From Acidimicrobiia bacterium (GTDB taxonomy: Bacteria; Actinomycetota; Acidimicrobiia; Acidimicrobiales; Bin134): DNA of 52,808 bases. The DNA is taken from positions 1-52,808 of the forward strand of contig JAJEGM010000031.1 in assembly GCA_022819825.1 (NCBI GenBank). Direction: 5' to 3'. The notes below the pieces were generated by a model, which made no database searches, was not told the origin of the DNA, and was given only the letters and a program-made list of their open reading frames with translations. Within the stretch, counting starts at the first letter, position 1. Every line of letters starts with the position of its first letter. A program made the translations under genes and the position numbers. Shown piece by piece: positions 6,001 to 22,895 of this stretch.

Positions 6001-9000
6001 CACTCCCGCCTGCGACGCCGGGTGCAACGCCAGCGTGTAATCAGACCCCGCCGTCGCGCCCACCACCTCGAGCGGCACGGTCACTGTCTCGCCGTCCACC
6101 AGGGCGCGGCTCAGCGTGAGCGTCACGTCCTTGGTGCCGCCGCTCTCCGCGATCCCCCCCGCCGGCGCGCTGATAGTGAGCGTGGTGTCATCGTTGTCGG
6201 TGAGCGTGATCGACGCCGACGAGAAGCTGGCGACGCCGGCGCCGCTCCCCGAGACCGTCACCGTCTCGTTGAACTCGTCCATCGCGTCATCCGTCGGCGT
6301 GAGCGTGAACGTGGTGGTTCTTGACGCTTGCCCGGCCGGGATCGTGATCGCCGCCGGCGCCGGCGCCGTGTAGTCCACCGCGTCGGCGTTGCCCGAACCC
6401 GCATGCGAGACCGTGACCGTCCTGTCCGAGCCGTAGCGGGTGCTCCCTTGCACCGTCGCCGTCACCGTGACCGCCGTCGCACCCGCGCCCTCCGCGATCG
6501 TCGATTCGTCCACGCTCAGCGCGACGCCTGTCGGCGCCGCGTCGTCGTCGGTGATGGTGACGCTGGCGCCGTTGACGGTCAGACCTAAGGAGGTGCCGCT
6601 GAGCGCCGCCGCGCCGTTCTGCTCGTCCCAGTTGTTGTTCGTCGGCGTGAGCGTGAAGCTGCCCGAACCTGAAGCGGCCCCGCGAACGATGCTGATGTCG
6701 AAGCTGGCGACCTGGCTGAAGTTGACTCGGCCCTGTGAGTTGTACCCGTCGACATCGACCCCTACGGTCACGGTGTTGCCGAGGCGCGTCCCGCCGTTCA
6801 CCGTCGCTGTGACCGTGACGGTGCGAGCGCCGCCGTTTTCGGTGATCGACGTCGGGTTCACGCTGAGGGTGACGCTCGTCGGCGTGGCGTCGTCGTCCGT
6901 CAGCGTGATCTGCGCCCCCGCTATGCCGGGCGTGCTGGTGCCCATGATGCTGCCGGTCACCATGACGGTGTTGTCAGTCTCGTCGACGATGTCGTTGTCG
7001 GGCGTGAGCGTGAACATCCCCGTGGCCGACTGCGCCCCCGCGGGAATGGTGATCGTGAACGTGCTCACCGGCGCCATGTCAACGTAGTTGATAATGCCGT
7101 CGGCGGTCGCAGCGACCGTAACATTCACCTCCTGTGCGACGCCGAAGCGGGTCACTCCCACCACCGTCGCCGTGACCGTGATCGTCGTCGCGCCGTCGCC
7201 CTCCCCGACGGTCGAGTCGTCCACACCCAGCGTGATCACCTTCGGCGCTTCGTCGTCGTCGGTGACAGTCACCGCGACGCCCGGCTTGGACGGCGCCGTC
7301 GGCGTGTAGCGGGAGCCGTCGCCGTTGCCCGAGGTGATCGCGTGGGTGATGGTGACGGAGCGCTGGTCGCCGGGGTTGTCGATGATGTCCTGGGTGCCGC
7401 GCACGGTCACCGTCTGGGCCGTGCCCCAGTTGCCCGACGTGCCCGCCGTGAACTCGAGATCCACCGACGACCCCCACGTCGAGCCGCCGTCGTCGCTGAC
7501 CTGCGTCCCCGCCGGCGCCGTGGCCGTGATCGTCACATTGCTCAACGGCCGCGAGCCCAGCACGACCGTGTAGTCGTCCGTGTCGCTCTGGTCCTCGCTC
7601 ACCGTCGTCGTGCCGCCGCTCGGGGTGACGGTCACCGCAGCCGTGTCGTTGTCGTTGATGGTCACCGCCACGCTGTCCGCCGAGCCCGCGACGACGCCTG
7701 CGGGCAGCACCCCGAACTCCAGCACCAGCGTCTCGGCGTCCTCGTCGATCCTGTCGTCGGTGGCGTTGAAGGTGAGCGTGCCGCTGCTGGACCCGCTCGA
7801 GATGGCGACGCTGCCGCCGTTGGAGAGCGTGAAGTCCGCCGACGACGCGGTGGGGGCGCCGCTCGTGCGCATCCGCACGGGGATGGACAGGTTCGCGTCC
7901 GCGCTCGTGTTCAGCGTCACCGTGACCGTCAGCGTGCCGCCCTCGGTCACTGTCCCGCTCGCCGAGACGCTGAGCTCCGCCGCCGCCCCCTCCACGCTGA
8001 AGACCGGCGACATGCCGTAGAGGGGCCGGGTCTGCGTGTTGGCCTGGGCGTTGGCGTGCCAGAGGCTGGCGCCGCTGTCGGCCCCGCCGCGCGACACCGT
8101 GCTCGCTCCGAGGGGGTGGTTCCACGCCTCGCAGGCGTTGCCCGAGCCAGTCCAGGGCTCGTACGGCATGAAGTCGCTGATCGTCCCCGCCGGGACGTTG
8201 CGCGTGCCGTCCTCGCTGCGCGGGTCGTCGCGGTCGAAGCCGTTGAGGACGCCGGTCCCCGAGCCGGACCAGGCCTGGTCGCAGAGGTCGCGGTAGTTGT
8301 TGGCGAGCCGTGCGCCGTTGAGCCAGTAGGTCGGGGTGCCCGCGGCGTCGGAGTCGGTGCCGGAGCCGTCCGCCCAGGTCGGATTGTGACCGGTGTGCGC
8401 CGCCGTCATGCCGTTGTGCACGCGCGCCGCCGTGCCCGTTGAGCCCGATGAGCTGCGCGTGCTCCCGAACACCTTGAAGAAGCCGGCGTAGGGGAGGATG
8501 TCGGCGTGACCGCCCGTCGCCAGCACCTCGCGGATGAAGGCGTCGTAGTCGGCAATGTCGGTGGACGTGGCGTCGCGGCCCGTCGAGGTGCGGAACAGCA
8601 GCCGGAAGTCGTCGCCGGGGCCGACGCCGCTGGACGGCACGAGCCCCCACGACGACGGCACCTTGACGGCGCCCGTCTCGTCGTCCACCAGCACGATGCC
8701 GATCGGGCCGCCGGTGACGTCGCCCAGGGTCACGTTGGCGCCCGAGGGCGCGCGTGCGTCCGTCCCGTAGGCGACGACGGCGTAGGGCTGCTCGCGGTCG
8801 CTGTCGTTGACCGGACGCAGCCGCAGCGTCGCGCTGGTGCCGCCGGACACGAACCGCAGCGCCGGGTTCTGCGCCGTGTGGGTCGTGCCCGAGTTCAACA
8901 GGGTCACGCCCGTCTGCGTCGCCGGATGCAGCCCGAAGGTGTAGTCGTCCGCGACCGTCGCGCCCTGCACGGTCAGCGGCACCGTCACCGTCTCGGCGCC

Positions 9001-12000
9001 CGTCAGGGCGCGACCGAGCGTGATCGTGATCGTGCGGTAGCCGGTCGTGCCGGCGCCGTTCTCCACCGCGTTGCCGTTCGCGTCGCCGTCGGAGGCGGAC
9101 ATGGTCACGGTCACCGGCGTCGCATCGTCGTCGGTGATGGTGACGGTGGTCGTAGCCGGCGAGCCCAGGCTGTAGCCGGACCCGGCGGCCAGCGTCAGCG
9201 TGAACGTCTCCGCGCCCTCGGCGGTGTTGTCGTCGATGATCGGCACGGTAAAGGTGTGCGACGTCTGCCCGGAAGGGAAGGTGAAAGACGCCGTAGGCGG
9301 GGTGTAGTCGTCGACAGAAGTAGCGGTCACATCCCCCGATCGGAGGTTGACGGTCAAATTGCTGGTGGGCGCGGGGCTGGCGTTCACCTGGATGCTGACC
9401 GTCCCTGCGCTCACGTTCTCGGCCACGCTGTAGGTCGCCGCATTGAAGGACAGCTCCGGCAGCGCCATCAGCTCGAACACGGGCGAGATGCCGAACATGG
9501 GCAGGGTGTTCGTCTTGCTGGTGCTACCCTCATACAGAGAGTTGTTGCCCGCCGCGTTTGTATGTCCGGATCCCACTTCGGAACCGGAATGGCCAAGCCC
9601 CTCGATAGTGACTCCCTGAACCGTATTTCTCCCGTTGGTAAAGGTGCCGGTCCAGATGCCTGTGGAGCCCCTGCCCGCGCCGGCCTCATTCGTGGCTTCT
9701 TGAGACTGGTCCAATCCACCGTCCCAGGTGTCATCGAAGAAGTCGAAGTAGTTGTCCGCCACCTTGTCGCTGGACGGCGCGGCGAGCCAGTAGACGGCGA
9801 CGCCGGAGTCGCTGTCGCTGGTGGAGCCGTCCGTCCAGCCGCCGCTGCCCGAGTTGAGGCTCGGGTCCCACATGCCCGTCTGCTCGCGAGCCTCGACGGC
9901 CGCGGTGGCGCCGATCACCCTCACGAGGCCGCCGTAGGGCAGCAGACCCGCGTGGCCGCCCCGCGCCACGACCCCCTGCACCCAGGTGTTGTAGTCGTCG
10001 ATGTCCGCCGACTCCGCCGTGCGCGTCTCGGAGGTGACGAAGATCAGGCGGAAGCGGTCGCCCGCGCTGAGGCCGGACGGCGCGAGCCCGAATGTCTCCG
10101 AGGCCACCCTGATCACGCCCGACTCGTCGTCCACGATGGAGAAGACGATCGGGCCGCCTGAGACCTCGCCGGCCGTGATGCCGTTCACCGTCGGGGTTCC
10201 TGTGCTGATCGAGACGGCGGGCTGCGAGCGGACCGCGTTCTGCACAGGCGTGAGGCGCAGCGTCACCGTCTGGATGTTGTTGCCAACCATCTGCACACTC
10301 GGGTTCTGCGTTGAGTCCCCAATCACGGTCACGCCCGTCTGCGGCGCCGGCTCCAGATCGAAGGTGTAGTCATCCGTGACCGTCGCGCCCTGCACGGTCA
10401 GCGGCAGCACCATCCACTGGCCGGAGGCCAGCGCGCGACTCAGCGTGATCGTGATCGTCTTGTAGCCCTCCGCGCCGCTGCCCCCCTCCACCGGGTCGCC
10501 GTCCGAGTTTCCGTCGGAGGCGGAGAGCGTGACGTCAACGGTCGGCAGCGCTCCGGTATCGGCGTCGGTCACCGTGACCGTGGCCGTGGAGGCGCTCCCG
10601 AGCGTGGCGTCGGCGGGGTCGCCGAGCCCCACCGTGAACGTCTCCGCGCTCTCGCTGACGCTGTCGGCTGTGATGTCGACGGTGATCGTCTTCGACGTGT
10701 CGCCCGCGGCGAACTCGAGGTAGCCGGCGTCGGCGGTGTAGTCGCCGGGATGGGCCGCGCCGCTCGCGCCCGTGCCGTCGGCGGTGGTCCAGTACACCGA
10801 CGCGGGCAACAGCGTCGTCCCGGTTTTGGTGACGGTGAGCGTGGTGGCGCCGTCGTCCTCGGCCGCTGTGGCCGTGGTGGAGTTGAACTGGATGGTGGGC
10901 TTGTCGGCGTCGTCGGTGATGGTGCCGACGGCGGTGCCTTTGAGGGCTGTCACCGAGGGGGCGTCGGTGCCGGTGGGCGTGCCGAGCGTCACGGTGAAGT
11001 AGTGGTCTGACTCGTAGATGCTGTCGCCGGTGGTGTTGACGGTGATGGTGCCGGCGGTTTGGCCTTGGGCGATGGTGATGCTGCCGCTGGCGGCGTCGGT
11101 GTAGTCGGTGCTGGTGGCGATAACGTGGGCGGGGTCGTCGCTGTAGCCGCGCCCGTCGGCGAGGGTGTAGGGGATGGTGATGCCGCCAGCGGGCGCGGCG
11201 GTCGTGATGGTCACGTCGAAGGTGACCGGGCTGCCCTCGGTGGCGGTGGCGGGCTCGATGGCGGCGCCGCCGGGGAGGGTGAACTCCTCGGTGGACAGCG
11301 CGTACAGGGGCCGCTGCTCGGCTCTGGGCGCGGGCTGGCAGTTGGTCGTGCCGACGGGTTGTCCCAGCGGCCCGCGGCTGTTGTCGTTGAGCAGCCCGTA
11401 GCTGACGTTCGGCGCGCCCGCTCTCAGATGCCGATCAGATCCCGTAAGGCCGTCGCAATTATTGGAGCGCTGGCCGCCGGCCTCCGAGCCGGTCCAGTAG
11501 CCGTTCGCGCTGGGGGTGGCCGCGGTGCCGTCGGCGTGGGTGGGGTTGGTCTCGTCGTCCCAGGTGCCGTCTAAGAAGTCGGCTTTGTTGTCGGCGACCT
11601 TGGTGCCGCCGACCCAGTAGATAGGGGCATCGGAGCCGGCTTCCTCCAGGTTGGCGTTGATGCTGGCGTTGCCTCCGCCGTTGACGCTGATCACGGCTTT
11701 GAACTTGCTGGCGTGCGGCTGAAGGTCCGGCACCCCGCCCTGCTTCAGCTGCGAGCCGGTGATCTCTTCGCGCACAAAACTGTTGTAGGGGTCCCAACCG
11801 TCCTCGCTGGCGTTCCTGGTCCCTCTGGTGACGTAGAGCAGCCGGAACCGGGCGCCGTCGTTCAGCCCGAGCGGCTTCAGCGACCAGTTGTTGGCCACCT
11901 GGATGGTCGCCGCCGCTGCGACCTCATCCTCATCGTCGGCGATGGCGAACCAGGCCTCGCCGCCGGCCGGGCTGGCCTCGACGCCGCCGCCGAGGTTGCC

Positions 12001-14586
12001 CTGCACAGGGGTGCTGCTGAACGGCTGTTCGGTGTCGGAGTCGAAGACGTAGAAGTCGTTGGGGAAGGTGACTGCGAACGCCTCGTCGTAGTGCTCGCCG
12101 TCGTCGAAATCGCCGCGGGCATGTACTTCGATGGTCGCGGTCTGCGCGCCAGCGCCGCGGAACTCGATGTAGCGGTAGCCGATGTGGTTGGGCGTGTTGC
12201 GGTTGGAGTGCTCGTAGGTGACGCCCGTCCCGGTGGCGGTCATGACGACGTCGTTGTGATGGGGCGGCCAGGCCACGTTCGCGCTGGCGCGCGGCCCGCG
12301 GTAGCTGTCCACGATGATGCGCAGCGGGTCGTGGTCGGACGGCAGCTGCGGGTCGTCGTCATCGTCGCGGTCGGGCGGGTCTTCCGGGAGCTGCGGATTA
12401 TTGCCGTTGGCGACGGCCTCGACGCGCAAGGGCACCCGTACGTGCTCGCCCGCCACGAGGGCGCGGCCGAGCGAGATGGTGAGGGTGCGGTCGACGCGCA
12501 GGGGGTTGCCCTCCACCATGACCCGGGAGATGTTGGTGCCGGTCAAGTGGTCGCCAGGGTCCCGCACGCCCGTCCCGGCCATGGTGACCGTCGTCGCATC
12601 GTCGTCGGCGACGGTCAGCTCGTGGGCGACCGCCGCGAGGCCGCTGTAGCTGGAGTCACTGCTGCTGATCGCGTGGCTGATCGTGACGGCCGCATCGGCC
12701 GCGTCCGTGTTGTTGTCCGCGCCTGTGACGGTGACGGTCTGGGGTGTGCTCCAGATGCCGGCACCGCTGGGGGTGAACGTGAGCGACGCGCCCGCCGTGA
12801 CCGCCGCCTTGGTCGCGTCGCTGCTGGTCACAGCGACGGTGACGGCGGCTGCGGGCACCGTGTTGAGACGCACTTTGTACGAATAAGTGCCGCCGTTCTC
12901 ATCGACGCGGCCGTCGCCCGGGTCCACGACGGTCAGGCCGGGGACGGCCTCGGCGAGGGTGACCGACTGGAAGCGTTCGCCGGGGTCGCCCTGGGGGCGG
13001 TTCGGGCAGCCGTGCGCCGCGCACACGCCGCCAGCCAGATTCGACCGCAGGTAGTTGGCACGCAACGGCTCATCAGTCGGCGGCATCCCGATCTGAAGCG
13101 TCTGGCTGGCCGAGTCGCCGTCGGCGAGCGCGGTGACCTCGACCACGCCCTCCTGCACGCCCACGCCGGCCAGGGTGACGAGACCCTTTGTGCCGTCTTG
13201 GGAGTCGGCGTAGGTGACACCGGTCTGCCCGCCGGCCGCGGCCAGCGAGAAATTGGCACCCAGCGTCGCGCCGGCGAAGGTCAGCACCGCGGTGACCTCT
13301 TCGCCCGCGGCCAGCGAGCGGTCGAGCTTGACCAGCACCGTCGCCTTGTCGGCGCCGCCCTCCGTCGCGGTGTTGTCAGCAGGACTGTTGGGCAACAGGC
13401 GCACCCGGGTCGGCTCGTCGTCGTCGGTGACCCGCACCGGCACGCTGGGCAGGGAGATGGCGGTGTACACCTCGGCGTTGCCGAAGTCGCCGTCTTTGCC
13501 CGGGGTGCCCGGGGTGCGGAAGCGGTCGTTGTCCTTGTAGACGGCGAACGTCAGATTGCCCATAAGCGTCCCGCCCGGCGTGTCGACCGCGTTGTCGAAC
13601 GCTACGAGGGCGACGTCCACGGCGAGCTCGGCAGGCGTCGGCGCTCTCGTCGTCGTGGAGGGCGCCACCGGCGGATTCGCCGTCGGGTCCCCGGGGTGGA
13701 CCTCCGTGACCACGCTGGGGAAACTCGCCACCACATAGCCCGACACAAGCGTAGTCTGCTCGTCGGGCGACGGCGGCCCGGCGATGCGCGCAATCGACGT
13801 GGCAAAACCGTCGCCGTTGGCCGCCGTGGCGTCCACCCAGCCGACGATCACGATGTCCTCGGTCGGCGCCGCGTCAAGCGCGATCTTGAACCCGGCGCGC
13901 GTGTCGCTGCTGTCGCGGTTGCGGGTCGCCTCCATCACCGACAACGCGCTGCCGCCGGGAATGGTAACCGTCGTCCCCGTGCCCGACAAGACGGTGTCCG
14001 CCGCCGGCTCGGCGACCGCCACCGCCCACTCGCCCAACACCGTGCCGCCCACACAATCCGCAGTAGTACACAACCGCACCCCGAACGTCTCATCATCACC
14101 ATCGCCATCCGCCAGCGCCGCCACCTCGAAGCTGACCGTGCCATGAGTAGCGTTGCGATAAGCACGCGGCGCGTCGGAATCAGGAGTGATCACCTGCGCC
14201 TGGCCGAGCAGATTGTCGGTGGTGACCCTCACATCGCCCGCCTCGGCGGTGAACGACCCCGCCACGCTTACATGCACGTAATAGCGGGAACGCTGCGTCA
14301 CGTTCGAGATCAGGAACTCGCGGGTCTGCCCCTCGACAATCGTGACCCGGTTTAGAACCGCCTGGGAGGTGACCTGCTGCGCCGAAGACACAGACGCCCC
14401 CAACCCCAACGGCAAACCCGCCGGAACCGCCGCCAACACCGACGCGAGCAAAACCAGCGCCAACCCGGCGCCCAGCCAGCGCCTCACCGAACACACCACC
14501 CCGCAGGCACAACCCCCCCCCCCCCCGCGAGGAATCCAACCGTACCGCAGGCGCGCCAACAAGCTCAGAAAAACCCGAACCGCCAT
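1..14586 (-). CDS. Giant exported Calx-beta repeat surface protein (3' end outside window)
   Basis: One uninterrupted minus-strand frame of 4,862 codons runs from ATG 14586 to base 1 without a stop. I checked the frame at all six internal modules and it is the same throughout. The N-terminus has a long n-region, then Arg-Arg, a Leu/Ala-rich hydrophobic stretch and a plausible signal-peptidase site at SSA-QQ, so it is probably exported. The body is dominated by Calx-beta-like repeats (GTAxxGxDYT, then DDxxxExxETFTLTL), which in other giant proteins bind calcium and serve adhesion. These alternate with six copies of an unnamed module beginning WGLxPSGLxxGDxFRLLF. Cell-surface adhesion is inferred. 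ATG 14586 is chosen because a promoter lies just upstream and because it stays in frame only with exactly 14 Gs at codons 21-25. GTG 14487, just before the hydrophobic core, is the alternative. The C-terminal anchor is not visible. Long plus-strand ORFs across this span are antisense shadows. Confidence 0.9.
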   Translation of the reverse strand, partial: MAVRVFLSLLARLRYGWIPRGGGGGCACGVVCSVRRWLGAGLALVLLASVLAAVPAGLPLGLGASVSSAQQVTSQAVLNRVTIVEGQTREFLISNVTQRSRYYVHVSVAGSFTAEAGDVRVTTDNLLGQAQVITPDSDAPRAYRNATHGTVSFEVAALADGDGDDETFGVRLCTTADCVGGTVLGEWAVAVAEPAADTVLSGTGTTVTIPGGSALSVMEATRNRDSSDTRAGFKIALDAAPTEDIVIVGWVDATAANGDGFATSIARIAGPPSPDEQTTLVSGYVVASFPSVVTEVHPGDPTANPPVAPSTTTRAPTPAELAVDVALVAFDNAVDTPGGTLMGNLTFAVYKDNDRFRTPGTPGKDGDFGNAEVYTAISLPSVPVRVTDDDEPTRVRLLPNSPADNTATEGGADKATVLVKLDRSLAAGEEVTAVLTFAGATLGANFSLAAAGGQTGVTYADSQDGTKGLVTLAGVGVQEGVVEVTALADGDSASQTLQIGMPPTDEPLRANYLRSNLAGGVCAAHGCPNRPQGDPGERFQSVTLAEAVPGLTVVDPGDGRVDENGGTYSYKVRLNTVPAAAVTVAVTSSDATKAAVTAGASLTFTPSGAGIWSTPQTVTVTGADNNTDAADAAVTISHAISSSDSSYSGLAAVAHELTVADDDATTVTMAGTGVRDPGDHLTGTNISRVMVEGNPLRVDRTLTISLGRALVAGEHVRVPLRVEAVANGNNPQLPEDPPDRDDDDDPQLPSDHDPLRIIVDSYRGPRASANVAWPPHHNDVVMTATGTGVTYEHSNRNTPNHIGYRYIEFRGAGAQTATIEVHARGDFDDGEHYDEAFAVTFPNDFYVFDSDTEQPFSSTPVQGNLGGGVEASPAGGEAWFAIADDEDEVAAAATIQVANNWSLKPLGLNDGARFRLLYVTRGTRNASEDGWDPYNSFVREEITGSQLKQGGVPDLQPHASKFKAVISVNGGGNASINANLEEAGSDAPIYWVGGTKVADNKADFLDGTWDDETNPTHADGTAATPSANGYWTGSEAGGQRSNNCDGLTGSDRHLRAGAPNVSYGLLNDNSRGPLGQPVGTTNCQPAPRAEQRPLYALSTEEFTLPGGAAIEPATATEGSPVTFDVTITTAAPAGGITIPYTLADGRGYSDDPAHVIATSTDYTDAASGSITIAQGQTAGTITVNTTGDSIYESDHYFTVTLGTPTGTDAPSVTALKGTAVGTITDDADKPTIQFNSTTATAAEDDGATTLTVTKTGTTLLPASVYWTTADGTGASGAAHPGDYTADAGYLEFAAGDTSKTITVDITADSVSESAETFTVGLGDPADATLGSASTATVTVTDADTGALPTVDVTLSASDGNSDGDPVEGGSGAEGYKTITITLSRALASGQWMVLPLTVQGATVTDDYTFDLEPAPQTGVTVIGDSTQNPSVQMVGNNIQTVTLRLTPVQNAVRSQPAVSISTGTPTVNGITAGEVSGGPIVFSIVDDESGVIRVASETFGLAPSGLSAGDRFRLIFVTSETRTAESADIDDYNTWVQGVVARGGHAGLLPYGGLVRVIGATAAVEAREQTGMWDPSLNSGSGGWTDGSTSDSDSGVAVYWLAAPSSDKVADNYFDFFDDTWDGGLDQSQEATNEAGAGRGSTGIWTGTFTNGRNTVQGVTIEGLGHSGSEVGSGHTNAAGNNSLYEGSTSKTNTLPMFGISPVFELMALPELSFNAATYSVAENVSAGTVSIQVNASPAPTSNLTVNLRSGDVTATSVDDYTPPTASFTFPSGQTSHTFTVPIIDDNTAEGAETFTLTLAAGSGYSLGSPATTTVTITDDDATPVTVTMSASDGDANGNAVENGAGTTGYRTITITLGRALTGAETVTVPLTVQGATVADDYTFGLHPATQTGVTLLNSGTTHTAQNPALRFVSGGTSATLRLRPVNDSDREQPYAVVAYGTDARAPSGANVTLGDVTGGPIGIVLVDDETGAVKVPSSWGLVPSSGVGPGDDFRLLFRTSTGRDATSTDIADYDAFIREVLATGGHADILPYAGFFKVFGSTRSSSGSTGTAARVHNGMTAAHTGHNPTWADGSGTDSDAAGTPTYWLNGARLANNYRDLCDQAWSGSGTGVLNGFDRDDPRSEDGTRNVPAGTISDFMPYEPWTGSGNACEAWNHPLGASTVSRGGADSGASLWHANAQANTQTRPLYGMSPVFSVEGAAAELSVSASGTVTEGGTLTVTVTLNTSADANLSIPVRMRTSGAPTASSADFTLSNGGSVAISSGSSSGTLTFNATDDRIDEDAETLVLEFGVLPAGVVAGSADSVAVTINDNDTAAVTVTPSGGTTTVSEDQSDTDDYTVVLGSRPLSNVTITATAPAGTQVSDDGGSTWGSSVDLEFTAGTSGNWGTAQTVTVRGTQDIIDNPGDQRSVTITHAITSGNGDGSRYTPTAPSKPGVAVTVTDDDEAPKVITLGVDDSTVGEGDGATTITVTATVVGVTRFGVAQEVNVTVAATADGIINYVDMAPVSTFTITIPAGAQSATGMFTLTPDNDIVDETDNTVMVTGSIMGTSTPGIAGAQITLTDDDATPTSVTLSVNPTSITENGGARTVTVTATVNGGTRLGNTVTVGVDVDGYNSQGRVNFSQVASFDISIVRGAASGSGSFTLTPTNNNWDEQNGAAALSGTSLGLTVNGASVTITDDDAAPTGVALSVDESTIAEGAGATAVTVTATVQGSTRYGSDRTVTVSHAGSGNADAVDYTAPAPAAITIPAGQASRTTTFTLTPTDDAMDEFNETVTVSGSGAGVASFSSASITLTDNDDTTLTISAPAGGIAESGGTKDVTLTLSRALVDGETVTVPLEVVGATAGSDYTLALHPASQAGVLLSTSGSDSVQQPKVTLSTGASSAVLRFTAVDDALRQQPYLVVKYGTGGRAPSGSGIGLAAPGDDSVGFVLTDDETGVIGALPSWGLMPNAAATLRHDFRLVFVTSGMRDASSTDIADYDHFVRRHLAEGHADIVPYAGFFTALGSTSAVTLQDHASVTGGASMNFYWLGETGTTGERRVASANSNFRGEWLEGSTPSQQSVPRDESGALVAVAANGYFTGSTAAGARSANPLGSANVTVGYLNDGGAGRAPLGSGQTASRTATRSFYGLSPVFSYLSDPAISITSATATVTEGTSITFTIEADPAPAANLPVNLAVGDSGHVIPPAASGLKYSAVTIPANTASVTYTVNTVADTTDEPDTDVTVGIFGGSDYVLGLPHTSVVTVIDNDAMAVSVSGGSGTVSEGASLDYTVDPGRELETGETVTVNFAPAGTATQGSDYSITCHGAGVSCTGLNGAAPALKITGGSGVRRGTIRVSVQTDSVHPETGETAGISLRAGHSSTGSGGAFSVTGTPSTFTISSVAPVGDGVEVPANWALIPSGLSGGDSFRLLFVSSTKRDASSTDIADYNSFVQARAAAGHAALASHSSAFRAVASTAAVDARDNTSTTGTGVPVYWVSGQKVADDYADFYDASWDSCVARDESGGSVALPNLDANLANAIWTGTNHDGTAETTRALGTTMPRVAVLTESCDSRYSATAFPLRFQFTTGTKANTSNRYLYGLSPVFKVAGTAPAAITASFPAAAYQVQESGGGGSVSVRLSAAAPSGGLAVSYTTGGTAVSGDDYTGAGGTVTVAQGQMSANISFTVIDDKLAEGAETLTLTIADGTGYDLGATPTTTITINDNDVAPTNIALSVDDSSVGEGDGATVITVTATVQGASRFAEAKTVAVTVTGSGGANVVGFTAAPSPFSIPIATGAQTGTGMFTLTPTDNSAVENDETVTVAGTLSGTTVASATITVTDDDTAATPVTVTLSAAAGDVTEGAAGAAGRKDVTITLGRALTGSETVTVPLSVQGAAVGSDYSFGLQPASQSGVSLLTGGSHSAQDPAVRFSAGATTAVLRFSPVNNAVRTQPYVVIGYGSGARAPSGGGGATLGAVTGGPVAFVVVDDETGDVTVPSSWGLAPSGLGAGDDFRLLFRTSATRDAASSDIADYDAFVRNAAATGGHADIVAYAGFFKAFASTRSSSGTTGTTARVHNGMASGHTGHFNGANDVWADGSTVPNAGNTAGTPIYWLNGAKLANNYADLCDQAVKSGSGVTTGWDIDDPRSETGNRNIASGVNPGQGHQAWTGTGNSCEAYDYPLGGDNNGDVSRAASHDTTWAFMHQAHSARSQQRPLYAMSPVFKIAGTAVTPVVRVTAGSAVIEGGNAVFTIAASPAPTGTISVRYTVTQNGQFLASGQLGSGKQRSLSGASATISIPTESDSVDEADGSVTVTLPSVSGLGYTVGSPSAASVTVRDNDVPAAQFAAGTSDVDEGSGTHLVRVNLSPAPYRGITVAYTVGGTATRGTDFATAGTVSAVAGAAFVDIPVTIIGDGADEPDETVVLTLTGGAGYEVGSSRVHTVTVADGPTGPPPALPVVTVAAGPAVIEGANATFTLSASLPAAAVSVRYTVTQNGQYLASGQLGSGKTATLSGTSAAIRIPTVNDTVDEAYGSVTVTLEAGTGYTVGAPASATIAVQDEDLPIARFAARTSTAGEGASTHYVRVLFSTPPHRDVLLGHSVLFSREPGSATRGADFTVEGSSVPVRAGAAFADIPIEIVDDNIAEGPETFALRLNIGGYYFLGPNWTRSHTVTITDSGTAVTPVADFAVAASTAAESAGTRNVTVRLVPAPAQSTTVSYALSGTAVRGSDYTISGVTSNTGTVTVGVSGTATIPVAIVDDTATEGDETVVLTLTIGSGYTVGTDSPSHTLTIAANDTVVVPQVSVTAGPAVDEGTAATFAVSASPAASGTISVRYTVTQNGQFVTSGQLGSNKTRTLSGASATISIPTQNDSADEADGSVTVT
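1973..2676 (-). repeat. Module copy 6 of the giant protein
   Basis: The most C-terminal complete copy in the window. It opens VPSSWGLAPSGLGAGDDFRL, contains SDIADYDAFV and PIYWLNGAKLANNY, and closes with RPLYAMSPVF. It is closest to copy 3: both carry the variant with DLCDQ and a DDPRSE segment. Confidence 0.8.
3818..4420 (-). repeat. Module copy 5 of the giant protein
   Basis: Opens with PANWALIPSGLSGGDSFRLL, then TDIADYNSFV, VYWVSGQKVADDYADFYD and the closing YLYGLSPVF. The interior has paired Cys residues, unlike copies 3 and 6. Confidence 0.8.
5170..5775 (-). repeat. Module copy 4 of the giant protein
   Basis: Opens with LPSWGLMPNAAATLRHDFRL, then TDIADYDHFV and FYWLGETG, and closes SFYGLSPVF. 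The turn after WGL is rewritten (NAAATLRH in place of SGLGAGD), so this is one of the most diverged copies. Confidence 0.75.
7998..8676 (-). repeat. Module copy 3 of the giant protein
   Basis: Opens with VPSSWGLVPSSGVGPGDDFR, then TDIADYDAFI and PTYWLNGARLANNY, and closes RPLYGMSPVF. It is very similar to copy 6 over its full length, which suggests a recent duplication or gene conversion. Confidence 0.8.
9468..10118 (-). repeat. Module copy 2 of the giant protein
   Basis: Opens with FGLAPSGLSAGDRFRLIFVT, then ADIDDYNTWV and AVYWLAAPSSDKVADNYFDF, and closes LPMFGISPVF. The middle is Gly/Ser-rich. Confidence 0.75.
11271..11920 (-). repeat. Module copy 1 of the giant protein
   Basis: The most N-terminal copy. 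It opens NNWSLKPLGLNDGARFRLLY, contains PIYWVGGTKVADNKADFLD and closes RPLYALS. The DIxDYDxFV block has diverged to WDPYNSFV, and the closing SPVF is lost. Confidence 0.7.
14513..14526 (-). repeat. Homopolymer of 14 G inside the 5' coding region of the giant gene
   Basis: Fourteen consecutive G on the coding strand, at codons 21-25 counted from ATG 14586. With 14 G the ATG reads through into the signal peptide and giant frame. One G fewer gives a stop within about a dozen codons. One G more shifts into a frame that ends near 14180. ATG 14596, which is out of frame now, would come into frame with 13 G. Such tracts mutate by slipped-strand mispairing and are the classic substrate of translational phase variation. 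If GTG 14487 is the true start, the tract lies in the leader instead. Confidence 0.85.
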
Positions 14587-14622
14587 AACTCAACATTATC
14601 TACCCCCCCCCCCCCAAGTCAA
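14587..14622 (-). promoter_or_regulatory. Promoter of the giant gene with a poly-G spacer
   Basis: The minus strand has a -35-like TTGACT (14622-14617) and a -10-like GATAAT (14600-14595), each five of six to sigma-70/SigA consensus. The 16-nt spacer is T, thirteen G, then TA. The expected start of transcription falls 0-2 nt before ATG 14586, so the mRNA would be leaderless or nearly so. Tract changes of one or two Gs would give 15-18 nt spacers and should alter promoter strength, as known for poly-G/poly-C spacers in Neisseria and Haemophilus surface genes. Promoter function is inferred from sequence only. Confidence 0.7.
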
Positions 14623-14775
14623 CCCCTCACCGCTTGACAAGTGACCGGACAACGGGGGGAACCTCACTTGTCTGGTGATCTCGGTTCTGGTCAGATCGTG
14701 GGCGCTGGCCGCTGCGGGCAACAGGGTCACCACAACACAAAAAACAGCGAACAGAGCGGTGAAACGGCAAGCCAT
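14596..14775 (-). CDS. Small secreted ORF ending in the giant gene promoter
   Basis: Encodes 59 residues starting MACRFTALFAVFCVVVTLLP and followed by AAASA-HD, a textbook signal peptide that would leave a mature piece of about 36 residues. GAAGGG lies 10 nt before the ATG, a good ribosome-binding site, which is why ATG 14775 is preferred over the in-frame ATG 14835. The last codons run through the -35 element and the 13-G tract (LTWGGGGR). The TAA stop shares its last A with ATG 14596 (TAATG), so translation could be coupled to that start if the downstream tract were one G shorter. It may be a real small secreted peptide, an upstream regulatory ORF, or the leftover start of a deleted surface gene. 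Confidence 0.45.
   Translation of the reverse strand: MACRFTALFAVFCVVVTLLPAAASAHDLTRTEITRQVRFPPLSGHLSSGEGLTWGGGGR
14603..14615 (-). repeat. Homopolymer of 13 G in the promoter spacer
   Basis: Thirteen consecutive G on the minus strand between the -35 and -10 elements of the giant gene, 76 nt from the second, 14-G tract. No other run of this length was seen in the window. Confidence 0.85.
14636..14672. promoter_or_regulatory. Inverted repeat upstream of the giant gene promoter
   Basis: Perfect 9-bp arms GACAAGTGA (14636-14644) and TCACTTGTC (14664-14672) are separated by 19 bp. The nearer arm is 13 bp from the -35 element. The repeat could be a regulator-binding site with centres about 28 bp apart, or an RNA stem in the upstream mini-ORF transcript. 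No T-run follows, so it does not look like a terminator. Confidence 0.4.
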
Positions 14776-15108
14776 CTTGGTGGTACCCTTCGGACGAGAG
14801 TTGAGCACTTCAAGCAAAGAGAAGTCAGCAGGCAACAGCTACTCGGGAGTAAGCATTGAGTCCAAGGGGATGCCCTGAGTAGGGGTCAAACCCCGTAACT
14901 CGCCGCTGAGAGGCCGAGAATGGGGGGATTTGGGGTCGATCTGGGCCGGCGAGCCCTCAGCGGCCCGTTAGCCGGCGAGGCCCTGGGCGAGTGTGCGGGC
15001 CGGTGGCGGGGGGTCAGCGCACCGGGCAGGCGGTCAAGTCAGCTCGGCCTGTTGTGGTCTCTGGCGTGGGGGGCTACCGAGTCGATGCGGCGGCGAGCGC
15101 CCCGGGTG
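14776..15108. other. Intergenic region, no gene recognised
   Basis: About 330 bp between the mini-ORF and the end of hipA. It holds the mini-ORF's ribosome-binding site and a short perfect inverted repeat, GGGGT-CAA-ACCCC (14882-14894), without a T-run. The part from 14920 to 15108 is very GC-rich and I see no convincing coding frame or RNA gene. ORFs overlapping it have the composition of shadows. Confidence 0.5.
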
Positions 15109-16566
15109 TCAGCGCTTGTCGTAGGTGTGGGGGCCGCGGTGACCGAGGGGCCGGTTGCAGCGCCGCCGCGACCGCCGCCCTATGTGCGGGCATCGGGTGG
15201 GCCGCCGGCCTGCGGGGAGGACGGGAACGACTGCTGAGGGCGTGCCGGTCCGGCTGGGAGCGGGCGATTGCGGTCTGGTGTGCCGTCCCCACATGCCGTC
15301 GGGGCGGGGTTCTGTGAGGGCGGCGAGCGCGGCGATGCGCTGGCTGTCGGCGAGCGGGCCGGGGAGACTGTCGATGGCTGCGGCGAGCGCGGCGGGAAGG
15401 CGGGAGGCGAGGTCGGAGACGCGTTCGGCGGCCCGGTCGGGATCGATTCCGGCTTCGGCGGCACAGTCTCGCCACGCTTGGGGCAGGTCTGCTTCGGACA
15501 CCGACCAGGCGGTGCCGATCTGCATGGCCAGTGTGATGCCGCCCTCGCCTATCTCAGGTGGCGCCCACGGGGCTTTGGAGCACACGTCGTAGAGGGGGGC
15601 GAGCGCGGTTTCGCCTGCGCCCAGCAGGATGCTGTAGTTCTTGGCGTGGGCGTCGTCGGCGGCGAGCAGCCAGTTGCACGCCAGAGCGTCATAGAAGCGC
15701 TCTGTGTCGCCGGGAGAGCCGGCCCGGTTGAGCAGGCCGGCTATGTCGAACACAGCCGGACCGCCGTTGCGCTGGAATTTGAACCGGGACGGGAAGCCGA
15801 GCGCCTGACAAAAGTCCTCTTGGTGGACTCGCTCCACAACAACACCGCCGCCGGCAGTGCGGTCGTATCGCTCCACGGCGATGGCCCGCTGCCGCCCGGC
15901 GACAACGATCTCGGTTCGGGCGGCGGGCATCCCAGTCCGGCGCAACGCGTCCATGCAGACGTGCTCGACGAGATCGGTGTCGGGGTAGCCGGGCAGGGCG
16001 ATTTTCAAGATGTGGGTGGACGGCGCGCCGCCGACGGGCGCGGCCCATGATCCGTCGCCGGTTTTGCACAGCACGGTTTTGGCCTGCGCTCCGGCGAGGC
16101 TGAACGGGGCCATAGGCCCTGCCTCAGCGGGCGGCGGCATGCCCGCTCGGAGCTGTTCCAAGCGCCGCTCGAGTTCTTGCTCGGACAAGGGGACGGAGCC
16201 GGGTGTGCGGGAGGCCATCTCGTCTAGCCGTTCCGGCGGGCAGAACTGGACGGCGCCGGCGCAGTCCCAGCCGATCTTGGTGGCGAGCAGGTCCATGGGG
16301 TCGTCGGAGAACGCCCCGTAGCGCGCCGCCCAGTATTCGCGGGCTTCGAGCCGGGCGGGGAGCAGCCCGTCCATCCAGTCGGCGATGTCGTGCTCGCCTT
16401 CTCCGAGGGGGATCGACAGCGACAGGGGTGCGGCGGCCCGATCTGTGGCGTAGTCGGAAGCGTAGGAGAACCAGCAGGCACCCTCCCGGCCCGCTCTGAC
16501 CGTCCCGGCGACACGGCCGCCGAGGAGCACGACGAGGCCGCCTCGGTTTGTTTGCGCTGCTGTCAT
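15109..16566 (-). CDS. hipA: HipA-family Ser/Thr kinase toxin
   Basis: Encodes 485 residues. HipA kinases are toxins that phosphorylate a cellular target (glutamyl-tRNA synthetase in E. coli) and induce growth arrest until bound by HipB. The family core is visible: a Gly-rich SLAGAQAKTVL loop near 156-166, the ATP-binding Lys in HILKIA (about 188), the catalytic block DDAHAKN with Asp 305, and the metal-binding Asp in PLYDVCS (about 327). ATG 16566 overlaps the antitoxin stop by 4 nt (ATGA), which decides the start. Beyond the usual HipA end (around 430-440) there is a Pro/Arg-rich tail closing with a C-x2-H ... C-x5-GHRGPH pattern, resembling the small Cys/His tails common on actinobacterial and phage proteins. 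The kinase looks intact. Confidence 0.9.
   Translation of the reverse strand: MTAAQTNRGGLVVLLGGRVAGTVRAGREGACWFSYASDYATDRAAAPLSLSIPLGEGEHDIADWMDGLLPARLEAREYWAARYGAFSDDPMDLLATKIGWDCAGAVQFCPPERLDEMASRTPGSVPLSEQELERRLEQLRAGMPPPAEAGPMAPFSLAGAQAKTVLCKTGDGSWAAPVGGAPSTHILKIALPGYPDTDLVEHVCMDALRRTGMPAARTEIVVAGRQRAIAVERYDRTAGGGVVVERVHQEDFCQALGFPSRFKFQRNGGPAVFDIAGLLNRAGSPGDTERFYDALACNWLLAADDAHAKNYSILLGAGETALAPLYDVCSKAPWAPPEIGEGGITLAMQIGTAWSVSEADLPQAWRDCAAEAGIDPDRAAERVSDLASRLPAALAAAIDSLPGPLADSQRIAALAALTEPRPDGMWGRHTRPQSPAPSRTGTPSAVVPVLPAGRRPTRCPHIGRRSRRRCNRPLGHRGPHTYDKR
15121..15145 (-). repeat. Left copy of a 25-bp imperfect inverted repeat
   Basis: Lies inside the hipA 3' end, where it encodes the GHRGPHTY tail. 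Read on the minus strand it matches 18901-18925 at 22 of 25 positions, including 15 consecutive bases. The two copies are in opposite orientation and lie near the ends of the hipBA-pseudogene-ATPase segment. Confidence 0.5.
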
Positions 16567-16841
16567 GGGCCGGCGAAGGAGGCGGCGTAGGCGGCGAGGC
16601 GCCCTGTTGGCGGAGCGGGGCACAGGTCGATCTCGTAGCCGAGCGCTGAGAGAACGGCGAGCACCGTTGCGGTGCTGGTGCCCCTAGAGGCCCCCTCGAT
16701 CTCGCTGATGCGGCCGCGGGGCACACCGGCGGCGGCGGCGAGGTCGGCCTGGGTCATCTTCTGGGCGCGGCGTAACTCGCGCACGGCATCCCCCAGCCGT
16801 TCAGCGTCTACGATGCGGGCGATCCGCCCCTCATGATCCAC
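16563..16841 (-). CDS. hipB: HipB-like XRE-family antitoxin / repressor
   Basis: Encodes 92 residues. The helix-turn-helix core is clear: LGDAVRELRRAQKMTQADLA, then AAGVPRGRISEIEGASRG. It is expected to neutralise the HipA kinase and repress the pair's promoter. GTG 16841 is chosen because it sits exactly where a transcript from the TATACT -10 element (16853-16848) should begin, giving a leaderless mRNA. An upstream in-frame GTG at 16865 lies beyond the -10 element and would require a different promoter. The hipB stop overlaps the hipA ATG by 4 nt, so antitoxin and toxin are translationally coupled, antitoxin first. Confidence 0.85.
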   Translation of the reverse strand: MDHEGRIARIVDAERLGDAVRELRRAQKMTQADLAAAAGVPRGRISEIEGASRGTSTATVLAVLSALGYEIDLCPAPPTGRLAAYAASFAGP

Positions 16842-16880
16842 ACCCACAGTATAACTGTGCCGCACGACATATCGTGCAAC
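16842..16880 (-). promoter_or_regulatory. hipBA promoter with two palindromic operators
   Basis: On the plus strand a perfect palindrome CACAGT-ATA-ACTGTG (16845-16859) covers the minus-strand -10 element TATACT. A second, GCACGA-CATA-TCGTGC (16862-16877), covers the -35 region. The centres are about 17-18 bp apart. Both are natural sites for an HTH dimer, consistent with autorepression by HipB. The two sequences are not the same motif, so a second regulator is possible. Confidence 0.6.
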
Positions 16881-16920
16881 TGGGTTATATGTCGGGTTGG
16901 TGGGCCCCGCCGCCTGCCGT

Positions 16921-17493
16921 CTATTGCGCCTGCCTGGACACGGCGGTGGCCATGTCGGCTGCTTCGCCGGCGGTCGCTTCCCCCTCGGGGGGCGGGCGTC
17001 TGCCGAAGACGATATCCCACCACGGGCGCAAACTGTCGCCGGTCATCCAGTCGAGCATCCCCGGCCCGTCGATCTTCAAGCGGATGCGGTGCCCGCTGGG
17101 AATACGGGTGTCCAACTCGATGCTCGTCGCGGTTTCACAGGCGGTGTGCGAACAGGCGGGTTCCGCCCAGCGGTATCTCGGTGCGGCCGGTCTTGGCGTA
17201 GAAGCGGCGGCCCTGTCGCTGTCGGAGTTCGCCGTCACCTCGAAACGGATCCTCTTGTACACCGCATCCGGATACGCCCGCGGGCCGTCGCTGTCAGGAA
17301 CGATCGCCAACGCCCGCCCCAACAGATCATTCGTCGAGGCCGTGATATCGCCCGCCTCAGCAGAAAACGACCCCGCCACACTGAAATGAAGAAAATACCG
17401 CGGACGCGACGCTATGCCCGAAATCTCAAAATCCCGAGTCTGCCCCTCGACAATCGAAGTCCGATGCAAAACCGCCGAGCCAGCCGAAAACAA
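16921..17493 (-). pseudogene. Decayed second copy of the giant protein's N-terminal domain
   Basis: The first 85 or so residues match the mature N-terminus of the giant protein: TSIVEGQTRDFEISGIASRP, SVAGSFSAEAGD, NDLLGRALAIVPDSDGPRAY and FEVTANSDSD each have direct counterparts there. After SDSD the similarity ends and a different, Arg/Pro-rich sequence runs to a stop. The signal peptide is missing: an in-frame TAG lies a few codons upstream and only a TTG is available as a start. It is best read as a truncated, signal-less remnant of a paralogous surface gene. Its present C-terminal part (CSHTACETATSIELDTRIPS onwards) has no match I recognise. Confidence 0.75.
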
Positions 17494-17537
17494 GGTCCTG
17501 AGAGTCCCCTAGCGGTTTGGAGGGTGGTGTGATGCCC

Positions 17538-17583
17538 AGAACCCGTCCAATCGGTAGCGTAGAACCCGTCCAATCGGTAGCGT
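17538..17583 (+). repeat. Perfect 23-bp tandem repeat in the ATPase gene promoter
   Basis: Two identical 23-bp copies (17538-17560, 17561-17583) begin AGAACCCGTCC and end CGGTAGCGT. Each ends in the -10-like TAGCGT. The second is 6 nt from the ATG at 17590, fitting a leaderless transcript, so the copies may be duplicated promoter or operator units. Confidence 0.65.
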
Positions 17584-18864: not shown

Positions 18865-18900
18865 CAGCCTCTCTTGGCGGATGCGCCACCACATGCCGTC

Positions 18901-18925
18901 CGGTCAAAGGGGCCCCCACACCTAC
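18901..18925 (+). repeat. Right copy of the 25-bp imperfect inverted repeat
   Basis: Just after the ATPase gene. It reads CGGTCA, four variable bases, then GGCCCCCACACCTAC, matching the hipA 3' end on the other strand at 22 of 25 positions. Here it lies between the ATPase stop and the likely CoA-transferase start and would encode GQRGPHTY, so it looks like a relic of the same Cys/His tail. Confidence 0.5.
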
Positions 18926-18997
18926 TGGCATGGGTGGGTGTCGCCCTCGCTGAGTAATCTGCCGGTCGATGCCCTGTGCCGACCGCCCTCGCTCCCG

Positions 18998-21349
18998 ATG
19001 ATTCTCCGGCACCTGCGAGTGGTCGAAGTGGGCGGGGGCATCTCGGGCCCCTATGCGGGAAAGCTGTTGGCCGACGCCGGAGCCGACGTAATCAAGGTGG
19101 AGCCCGTTGGCGGGGAGCCATTGCGGCGTTGGTCGGCTTCTGGCGCAGAGTTGGGCGACAAAGACGGGCCGCTGTTCCAGTTTCTGAATACCTCCAAGCG
19201 CTCGGTGATTGGCGACCCGAGCGACCCGGAAGTCGCTGACTTGCTGGCCAGCGCCGACATCCTCATCGACTCCACCGAAGAGGGACTGCCCCCGGCAATC
19301 ATCAGAGCCGCACGCAAGGCCAACCCCGCACTGGTGCTGGTGTCGATCTCTCCGTGGGGACGCACCGGTCCGTATGCTCACAGGCCAGCCACCGAGTTCA
19401 CCTTGCAGGCCGAGTGCGGCGGCATCGGCAAACGGGGCAACCCCGAGCGGCCGCCGGTTCAGGCCGGCGGCGCCATCGGCGAGTGGACCGCAGCGATCTA
19501 CGCCGGGGTGGGGGCGCTGGCCGCGGCCCGAGCCGCCGGGCGCAGCGGTCGAGGCGACCACGTGGACGTTTCCATGTTCGAGACCATGGTCATGACCATG
19601 AATACCTACGCATGGATAGCGGCCGAGTTGAGCGGCGACACCGACCCCGTGCGACCCGGTCGCAACGTGGAACTGCCCTCCATCGAGCCCACCGCGGACG
19701 GCCACGTGGGCTTTTGCACGGTAGCCCGCCAGCAGTTCCTGGACTTCTTGGTGATGATCGGCCGCTCCGATTGGCTCGAGGATGAGGAGATGTGCGGCTA
19801 CGGCGGCCGCTGGAAGCGACGGGACGAATTCCGAGCGGCCATGCACGCCTGGACCACCCAGCGGACCACGGCCGAGGTGATCGCCGAAGCATCAGCTCGG
19901 CGCATTCCGGTGGCCCCCATCGGCACCGGGGCATCCGTGCCCACTTTGGAGGCGTTCTCCGGGCGGGATGCCTTCACCACCAATCCCTCGGGCGGCTTCA
20001 CCCAGCCAGCTGTCCCCTACCAACTGCACGGCACTGAAACCCGGCCCTTCGAGGCGGTCCCCGCGGCCGGTGAACACACCGGACAGATTGAGGCCCGCAC
20101 CCCCCAGCCCAACCGAGGCGAACCCGCCGCCCTCCCCCTGGCCGGCGTGCGGGTGATCGACTTCACCGCCTGGTGGGCCGGGCCCATCGCCAGCCACTCT
20201 CTGGCGCTGCTCGGCGCCGATGTGGTCAAAATCGAGTCCGTGCAGCGGGCCGACGGCATGCGCTTCGCCTCCGCCCAACCGCCGTCGCAAGACCAGTGGT
20301 GGGAATGGGGCATGGTCTTCCACGGGGCCAACACCAACAAGCGTGACGTTACCCTCGACCTCCGCTCCCCGGAAGGTGTTGCTGTGGCCGAGCGGCTCAT
20401 CGCCGACGCCGATGTGGTGATCGAGAATTTCACCCCCAGGGTGATGGAGGGCTTCGGTCTCACTTGGGAGCGGCTCTCGGCCCTCAATCCAAGGCTGATC
20501 ATGACCAGGATGCCCGCCTTCGGACTCAGCGGCGCCTGGCGCAATAACACCGGCTTCGCCCAGACCATGGAACAGCTCACCGGAATGGCCAACATCACCG
20601 GCTATCCCGACGAGGATCCCCAAATTCCCCGGGGACCGTGCGATCCGCTGGCGGGCATGCATGCGGTGTTCGCCACCCTCACCGCCCTCGAGGAGCGAGA
20701 CCGCACCGGTCAGGGCCGTCTGGTAGAGGTCACCATGGTGGCCGCCGCCCTCAATGCCGCATCCGAGCAGTTGGTGGAGTATTCAGCCCTCGGCCGCCAG
20801 CTCCCCCGGGAAGGCAACCGGGGGCCGCGGGCCGCTCCCCAGGGGGTGTACCCCGCGGCCGGCTTTGAGCGCTGGGTGGCCGTGGCGGTGGCGAACGACC
20901 TCCAGTGGAAGGCCCTCTGCAACCTGCTCGACCGCCCCGACTGGGCCGAACACGACACCGCCGACAAGCGGCAGGCTGCCGCCGACGCTATCGACGCCGG
21001 GCTCGGCGAATGGATCGCCCCCCAAACCGACGCCGACGCGGTGGAGCAGCTGAACGCAGCCGGGGTCCCGGCCAGCGTGGTGGTGCTGCCCGCCGAGATC
21101 GGCAACCACCCCCAGCTTCGAACCCGCTCGTTCATCGAGCCCATAGACCACCCTGTGTGCGGCGAGGTCTCCGCCGCCAGCCTCCCGTTCCGGTTCGAAA
21201 CATCACCCGGCCCCTGGACGAAGACACCGGCACCCACACTAGGCCAGCACAATCACGAGGTGCTGGCCGGCGAGTTGGGGCTGACCGATGATGAGTTGGC
21301 CGAATTGGAGGCCAAGGGCGTCATCGGCACCCGCCCTGCCGGGCTCTAG
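18998..21349 (+). CDS. Tandem-domain class III (CaiB/BaiF) CoA-transferase
   Basis: Encodes 783 residues from ATG 18998; family proteins begin close to the LRVVEVGGGISGPYAGKLLA motif seen here at residues 4-23. Two full class III CoA-transferase domains are fused. The first covers about 1-365. The second starts at LAGVRVIDFTAWWAGPIASH (about 377) and runs to the end. Such enzymes move CoA between carboxylic acids through an Asp-bound mixed anhydride. The second half keeps the Asp in CDPLAGMHAV. The first half has IGEWTAAIYAG, with Glu at that place, so it may be non-catalytic. An in-frame ATG at 18881 would add 39 residues of unrelated sequence and is disfavoured. No Shine-Dalgarno is obvious. 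Confidence 0.85.
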   Translation: MILRHLRVVEVGGGISGPYAGKLLADAGADVIKVEPVGGEPLRRWSASGAELGDKDGPLFQFLNTSKRSVIGDPSDPEVADLLASADILIDSTEEGLPPAIIRAARKANPALVLVSISPWGRTGPYAHRPATEFTLQAECGGIGKRGNPERPPVQAGGAIGEWTAAIYAGVGALAAARAAGRSGRGDHVDVSMFETMVMTMNTYAWIAAELSGDTDPVRPGRNVELPSIEPTADGHVGFCTVARQQFLDFLVMIGRSDWLEDEEMCGYGGRWKRRDEFRAAMHAWTTQRTTAEVIAEASARRIPVAPIGTGASVPTLEAFSGRDAFTTNPSGGFTQPAVPYQLHGTETRPFEAVPAAGEHTGQIEARTPQPNRGEPAALPLAGVRVIDFTAWWAGPIASHSLALLGADVVKIESVQRADGMRFASAQPPSQDQWWEWGMVFHGANTNKRDVTLDLRSPEGVAVAERLIADADVVIENFTPRVMEGFGLTWERLSALNPRLIMTRMPAFGLSGAWRNNTGFAQTMEQLTGMANITGYPDEDPQIPRGPCDPLAGMHAVFATLTALEERDRTGQGRLVEVTMVAAALNAASEQLVEYSALGRQLPREGNRGPRAAPQGVYPAAGFERWVAVAVANDLQWKALCNLLDRPDWAEHDTADKRQAAADAIDAGLGEWIAPQTDADAVEQLNAAGVPASVVVLPAEIGNHPQLRTRSFIEPIDHPVCGEVSAASLPFRFETSPGPWTKTPAPTLGQHNHEVLAGELGLTDDELAELEAKGVIGTRPAGL

Positions 21350-21389
21350 CTGACTACCCTTGCTCAGAGTGTCTCGGAAGGAAACGGAT

Positions 21390-22862: not shown

Positions 22863-22895
22863 TCTCGGTCAAAACCAGAGGCGAGTCCGCAGCCC

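Follow-up and report, generated by a model that had tools for sequence, protein, structure and literature searches.

The best-known cases of homopolymer phase variation come from Gram-negative bacteria that live in association with hosts; the phasomes of Campylobacter, Helicobacter and Neisseria all belong to Gram-negative hosts, and Bifidobacterium breve is an actinobacterium. In porA of Neisseria meningitidis a poly-G run occupies the promoter spacer and a tract of seven A lies in the reading frame, as the available sections of that report describe (PMC3639595). For the B. breve pilus genes bbr_0113 and bbr_1889, the accessible text reports replication slippage in G-tracts shown by deep sequencing, and it refers to G-tracts located in promoter spacers as well (PMC9187656). 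Indels (insertions and deletions) in homopolymeric tracts of Mycobacterium tuberculosis and Propionibacterium acnes have been proposed as phase variation, according to the accessible parts of the two papers (PMC11898584, PMC4746626). Here we describe two G runs at the start of a giant, apparently exported protein gene of an Acidimicrobiia bacterium. They lie in a stretch of 52,808 nucleotides (nt), the window, which is one entire contig (C23) with a GC content of 63–70%; the host genome amounts to 3.44 Mb in 57 contigs, with a completeness of 91.5%. Throughout, L-numbers denote loci or stretches, G-numbers genomes (members of the genus and others) and C-numbers contigs of the host genome, and tract lengths are those of consensus sequences.

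We propose, with a probability of roughly 0.55, that the two runs form a two-input simple-sequence contingency locus in series, tract 1 acting on the promoter and tract 2 on the reading frame. Replication slippage in tract 1 would shift the -35/-10 spacing and thereby set transcription in steps. The transcript would most likely begin at or beside ATG 14586, without an untranslated leader. Slippage in tract 2 would then decide between a signal peptide followed by the giant Calx-beta protein (11, 14 or 17 G) and a stop within 33–135 codons.

The anatomy of the locus is as the initial annotation had read it. On the minus strand TTGACT (14622-14617) is followed by a T, 13 G (14615-14603), TA and GATAAT (14600-14595), so that the G run nearly fills a spacer of 16 nt. 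Within 14300-15150 the scan gave no sigma-70-like promoter match other than this hexamer pair (mean of 50 shuffles 0.0, sd 0.1). A second run, of 14 G (14526-14513), follows 76 nt downstream of the first, after codon 20 of the frame that opens at ATG 14586. The features are listed here together with the two alleles compared most closely, L049 and that of G019.

14617-14622, minus strand: -35 hexamer TTGACT, the same in L049 and TTGACG in G019.
14603-14615, minus strand: tract 1, 13 G in the promoter spacer, which measures 16 nt in the window, 17 in L049 and 15 in G019.
14595-14600, minus strand: -10 hexamer GATAAT, whose final AT opens ATG 14596.
14584-14586, minus strand: proposed start codon ATG, 8 nt past the -10 hexamer, on a putatively leaderless mRNA.
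14527-14586, minus strand: 20-codon leader MAVRVFLSLLARLRYGWIPR ahead of tract 2.
14513-14526, minus strand: tract 2, 14 G at codons 21-25, the frame of ATG 14586 being kept at 14; 12 G in L049 and 7 in G019.
14485-14499, minus strand: alternative in-frame GTG starts 14499, 14496 and 14487, past tract 2.
1-14586, minus strand: giant, apparently exported protein gene of at least 4,862 amino acids with six Calx-beta stretches, cut by the contig end.
14638-14668, minus strand: short sequence matching the end of an insertion element of the genus, directly upstream of the -35 hexamer.

The strongest evidence for length change comes from alleles of the gene. L049, from another Acidimicrobiia genome, is 99.17% identical to the window over 7,014 nt and 99.7% identical over 14971-17583. 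Farther from the locus, gene identity drops to 94% and 89%, and the source of L049 is therefore probably another species. A global alignment of 7,013 nt contains 52 substitutions and three indels, one in tract 1, one in tract 2 and one of a single codon elsewhere. The tracts are thus an indel hot spot between close alleles, and the chance that two of three indels would fall inside their 27 nt is 4e-5. In the G019 allele (loci L044, L050 and L061; 86% identical) the lengths again differ at both tracts, and the leader tracts of the three alleles, 14, 12 and 7 G, represent one of each frame class. The initial annotation had named in advance length differences between close relatives as a check on the idea, and these alleles supply them; the comparison suggests that the tracts are hypermutable. 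In G012 the leader of a fourth relative, L047, contains runs of G18 and G12. Tandem tracts recur in further relatives of the giant gene, upstream of homologous N-termini: C13 and C12, 40 nt apart, at L051:5817-5881, and C12 and C17, 37 nt apart, at L052:5831-5896.

Similar differences were seen at other tract genes, in pairs that were the author's choice. Over 4,567 aligned nt of a recombinase region in G019 and G010 (L062 and L072) the sole indel lies in the C tract, 12 versus 18 long. The tracts of L084 and L038a measure 14 and 10, this being one of four indels, and the runs of L031 and L040 measure 12 and 13. Such differences could also be produced by sequencing or assembly, for instance if two-colour poly-G artefacts or polymerase stutter had lengthened short runs. 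This would suit relatives that are metagenome-assembled genomes, as are all four named relatives of the giant gene (each titled Acidimicrobiia bacterium), lengths taken from consensus, and the position of three of the host's 14 tracts within 141 nt of a contig end. Against this, homologous tracts recur at matching sites in genomes that were assembled separately, and runs of 16, 16 and 25 occur in the single-contig genomes G014 and G006. We regard an artefact as very improbable, and treat the exact tract lengths as uncertain.

Chance does not account for the runs either. The initial annotation had held runs of this length to be very unlikely by chance, and the window contains two runs of at least 13 versus 0.01 expected, with none of 100 shuffles containing two. 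In 192,497 nt of the host genome (the window plus 12 stretches picked because they bear tracts) there are 100 runs of length 6, 11 of length 7, none of 8-9, two of 10 and 14 of 12-22. Extrapolation of the length decay predicts 0.006-0.05 runs of 12 or more, so that the repeats are longer than chance provides, as is expected of a contingency locus; by position, they lie where a change in length would alter transcription or frame.

The other tracts are placed similarly. Of 14 runs of at least 12 G or C in the host genome, 11 stand ahead of genes. Nine precede eight genes with apparently exported products (signal peptides judged by eye): the giant gene with its two tracts, fn3 genes in L035 and L038, an RCC1 and fn3 gene (L037), a cadherin and GSDH gene (L040), a gene with collagen repeats (L041), and genes for a Big_9 protein (L032) and a PPDK_N protein (L031). 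Two more precede tyrosine recombinases, with C14 in L034:5336-6391 and C16 in L039:5932-6933, each just after the ATG; four relatives of these recombinases carry runs of 12, 13, 14 and 18. The remaining three tracts, which fit no start-of-gene role, lie within an fn3 gene (C35:313) and at contig ends (C10:5 and C52:13079). Eight of the 14 tracts lie near a predicted coding start, a number reached in 2 of 20,000 random placements, as do 15 of 28 tracts of relatives (0 of 20,000). The coding starts were taken from a codon-usage gene finder written for this analysis, which missed some starts, and the relatives' loci in the placement test include L079-L081, which were selected by promoter pattern. 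The tracts examined in relatives were all those listed for G019 (5), G014 (4), G006 (3), G010 (5) and G018 (4), 16 of the 26 in G012, 4 of the 8 in G004, and three in G003 and G015 that were selected by the promoter-spacer pattern; some tracts at contig ends were left out.

Tract 1 probably has a promoter function. It is a homopolymer within a good -35/-10 spacer, as in a dual switch of the porA type, and the spacings of 15, 16 and 17 nt across three alleles agree with the earlier suggestion that slippage here would change promoter strength stepwise; tuning of the promoter by tract 1 is a well-supported prediction from these sequences. A G-run promoter-spacer pattern gave six matches in 5 of 22 genus genomes, two of which are the giant-gene promoter itself in the window and in G019, versus two matches for the reversed pattern (both in G021). 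When 68 tracts of at least 9 nt from 56 sources were inspected, eight were flanked by -35 and -10 elements versus none in the reversed control. Three of the eight are alleles of the giant-gene promoter, L075, L080 and L081 had already been caught by the pattern in the 22 genomes, and L074 and L085 are new. An alternative is that the G runs act as DNA or RNA G-quadruplexes, for which runs of 13 and 14 G on the coding strand, 76 nt apart, would be suitable. We consider this extremely unlikely: a location inside the -35/-10 spacer is better explained by spacing, and in 8 of the 11 host tracts that precede genes the coding strand carries C, so that an RNA quadruplex is not the common function.

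For tract 2, the balance tips slightly towards a role in the reading frame. The frame is open from ATG 14586 through the tract, and stays open with 11, 14 or 17 G; it ends at 134-135 amino acids with 12 or 15, and at 33-34 with 13 or 16. The arithmetic given earlier, with the frame on at 14 and off at 13 and 15, therefore holds. A further state that had been suggested, in which 13 G would bring ATG 14596 into use, was rejected. This ATG shares its A and T with the end of the -10 hexamer, so that the GATAAT promoter is unlikely to transcribe it whole, and it is absent from the G019 allele. ATG 14586 is the likelier start. Upstream of 129 predicted ATGs in the host genome and related stretches, gaps of 6-10 nt hold 27 TANNNT hexamers and the remaining 31 gaps in the range 0-35 hold 15, and the 8-nt gap between -10 and ATG 14586 fits leaderless transcripts. 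The mRNA of the giant gene is thus probably leaderless, with a spacing that is common in the genus.

The frame of ATG 14586 runs off the contig end after 4,862 amino acids. Its Pfam matches are the six Calx-beta stretches, a LapA match falling below its cut-off, and by eye a signal peptide appears to follow tract 2. A giant exported repeat protein, as initially annotated, is in keeping with all of this.

We also examined the frame at other tract genes, 19 tract alleles in all. In family A, L040 is in frame and L031 is out. In family B (fn3 repeats in the two host copies scanned) an ATG lies 4-7 nt ahead of the C run. Its copy L084 is in frame. L038a and L038b are not, but they retain open frames of 689 and 1,531 amino acids, with no in-frame start in the 75 nt past the run. 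The fourth copy, L094, is out of frame and has an in-frame GTG 59 nt past the run, so that three of the four copies lack an in-frame start within that distance. Two of six recombinases are in frame; in-frame ATGs just past the run in four of the six make them weaker evidence for frame switching. In family F, L071 is in frame and L070 out. L045 is out of frame and has later in-frame starts, and the frame of L032 is undecidable because its contig begins there.

Several observations weigh against the two-input reading. As to tract 2, in-frame GTGs directly past it could start the protein whatever the tract length, which leaves frame switching likely but unproven. Only the window's allele, one of three of the giant gene, is in frame with an ATG at 14586; L049 is not, and G019 is so only from two TTGs, at -67 from tract 2 (one base past the -10 hexamer) and at -13. 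Families A-C are in frame in 4 of 12 cases, the random-frame expectation. As to the promoter, GATAAT itself does not fit the TANNNT pattern, so that the count above supports the spacing and not the hexamer. A general design of poly-C promoter spacers was rejected, TTGAC with a C-run spacer matching once in 22 genomes (0 in the reversed control); L037 (TTGACA, 20 nt containing C13, TATGTA) resembles such a spacer by eye and was missed by both promoter patterns. As to the tracts in general, the G019 allele has seven further indels in an 866-nt comparison, and L034/L090 and L084/L094 share a run length of 14 despite 3-4 indels elsewhere or at the run edge. Ten or more runs were counted in 12 of 118 genomes of the order, all three genus members sampled and 9 of the 115 others (run counts, not sites); an origin of the tracts in the genus alone was rejected on these counts and on the presence of runs of 12 or more in 7 of 19 genomes from other families, besides 19 of the 21 other genus members. 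Finally, with lengths taken from consensus, we infer switching within a population, the point where transcription begins and any effect on expression.

The points concerning tract 2 would be accommodated if tract 1 were the sole switch and the protein started at GTG 14499 or 14487, tract 2 being an untranslated spacer of drifting length. From GTG 14487, VRRWLGAGLALVLLASVLA is by eye a complete signal peptide, and the codon-usage signal of the giant gene begins at about 14475. In L045, which has a different upstream sequence, an ATG is aligned with GTG 14499. On the other hand, ATG 14586 is well placed for a leaderless start in a frame open through tract 2, and the runs of family B seem to be translated through. 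We therefore judge this alternative unlikely and prefer the reading in which both tracts act.

The repair genes of the host offer a plausible cause of unstable runs. A domain search of the host genome gave no match to MutS, which a 91.5%-complete genome could lack by omission, and it did give a match to NucS; the accessible part of one report has NucS unable to correct indels (PMC8228993). This combination would equally permit neutral growth of homopolymers, the runs persisting where selection is weak, at the 5' ends of genes, without selected switching. Frames that look random and patchy high run counts in genomes of other families agree with neutral growth. It explains less well why run lengths are two-humped, with none of 8-9 and fourteen of 12 or more, why 8 of 68 tracts sit between -35 and -10 elements and none does in the reversed control, and why tracts are mostly linked to apparently exported repeat proteins; moreover, runs of 11 or more are absent from 61 of the 118 genomes of the order and present in 57. 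We hold neutral growth to be improbable.

A broader proposal, which we put forward tentatively and at slightly less than even odds, is that the genus has a phasome. G/C tracts would precede eukaryote-like surface proteins (Calx-beta, fn3, cadherin, collagen, RCC1) and tyrosine recombinases, and slippery leader cassettes, some with two tracts in series, could pass from gene to gene and from species to species, so that every cell would display its own stochastic mix of surface proteins. Phase variation of a recombinase could bring in variation at a second level.

The surroundings of the promoter have features of their own. The sequence at 14638-14668 (minus strand) has identical copies of 29-31 nt at five places in three other genus genomes (G020, G009 and G012) and further copies at 90-97%, several close to contig ends; it looks like the end of an insertion element, since the open reading frame beside one copy (L106) carries rve and HTH_21 transposase domains. 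A HipA-like kinase gene (15109-16623, minus strand) adjoins the promoter. The region 14899-16914 is 99.85% identical to G019 and the genes further out (18878-23060) are 92% identical, which suggests recent exchange between species around this gene. Beyond it, at 17215-17481 (minus strand), part of the N-terminal region of the giant protein recurs as a fragment with 56% identity, and G019 has two N-terminal copies of the giant gene on one contig. A signal-peptide-like frame (MACRFTALFAVFCVVVTLLPAAASA...) opens at ATG 14775 and runs on the minus strand from 14775 to 14596, through tract 1, with its stop just after; it may be a remnant of another gene's start, as L049 lacks the region of that ATG.

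If the two-input reading is true, a two-tract switch within a tract-linked set of surface genes, in an uncultured actinobacterial lineage without a MutS match, would widen the known range of the mechanism by a new class. Whether bacteria that rely on NucS, which reportedly ignores indels, are prone to homopolymer switching would become testable as well. As spacer length and frame are readable from deep reads, expression state could be deduced in uncultured cells.

Among open-licence full texts, in the parts available, we found no relevant publication on phase variation in Acidimicrobiia or Acidimicrobiales, or on homopolymer phase variation in sponge symbionts. The initial annotation had taken a combined switch to be new for this type of actinobacterium; we likewise found none in such actinobacteria, but the combination itself is known from porA in the available text (PMC3639595). 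As in porA, two homopolymers would act on one surface-protein gene through promoter spacing and frame. Unlike in porA as described there, both runs here are G, the second run has 14 bases, the mRNA probably lacks a leader and the product is a giant actinobacterial Calx-beta protein, known here from sequence alone. The sortase-dependent pili of B. breve are alike in that G-tract slippage joins or separates the frames of surface structures; they differ in having one intragenic tract per cluster, other proteins and another class, and the accessible text contains no two-tract gene (PMC9187656). The M. tuberculosis and P. acnes tracts concern other genes, with no promoter-plus-frame pair in the available passages (PMC11898584, PMC4746626). 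The Campylobacter, Helicobacter and Neisseria phasomes, so far as the accessible accounts describe them, likewise comprise numerous tracts in each genome, located in promoters and in reading frames, whereas our host is an actinobacterium with tyrosine recombinases among its tract-linked genes. What appears to be new here is the lineage, the presence of two G runs on a single gene that is giant, adhesin-like and probably leaderless, and the wider set across the genome to which this gene belongs.

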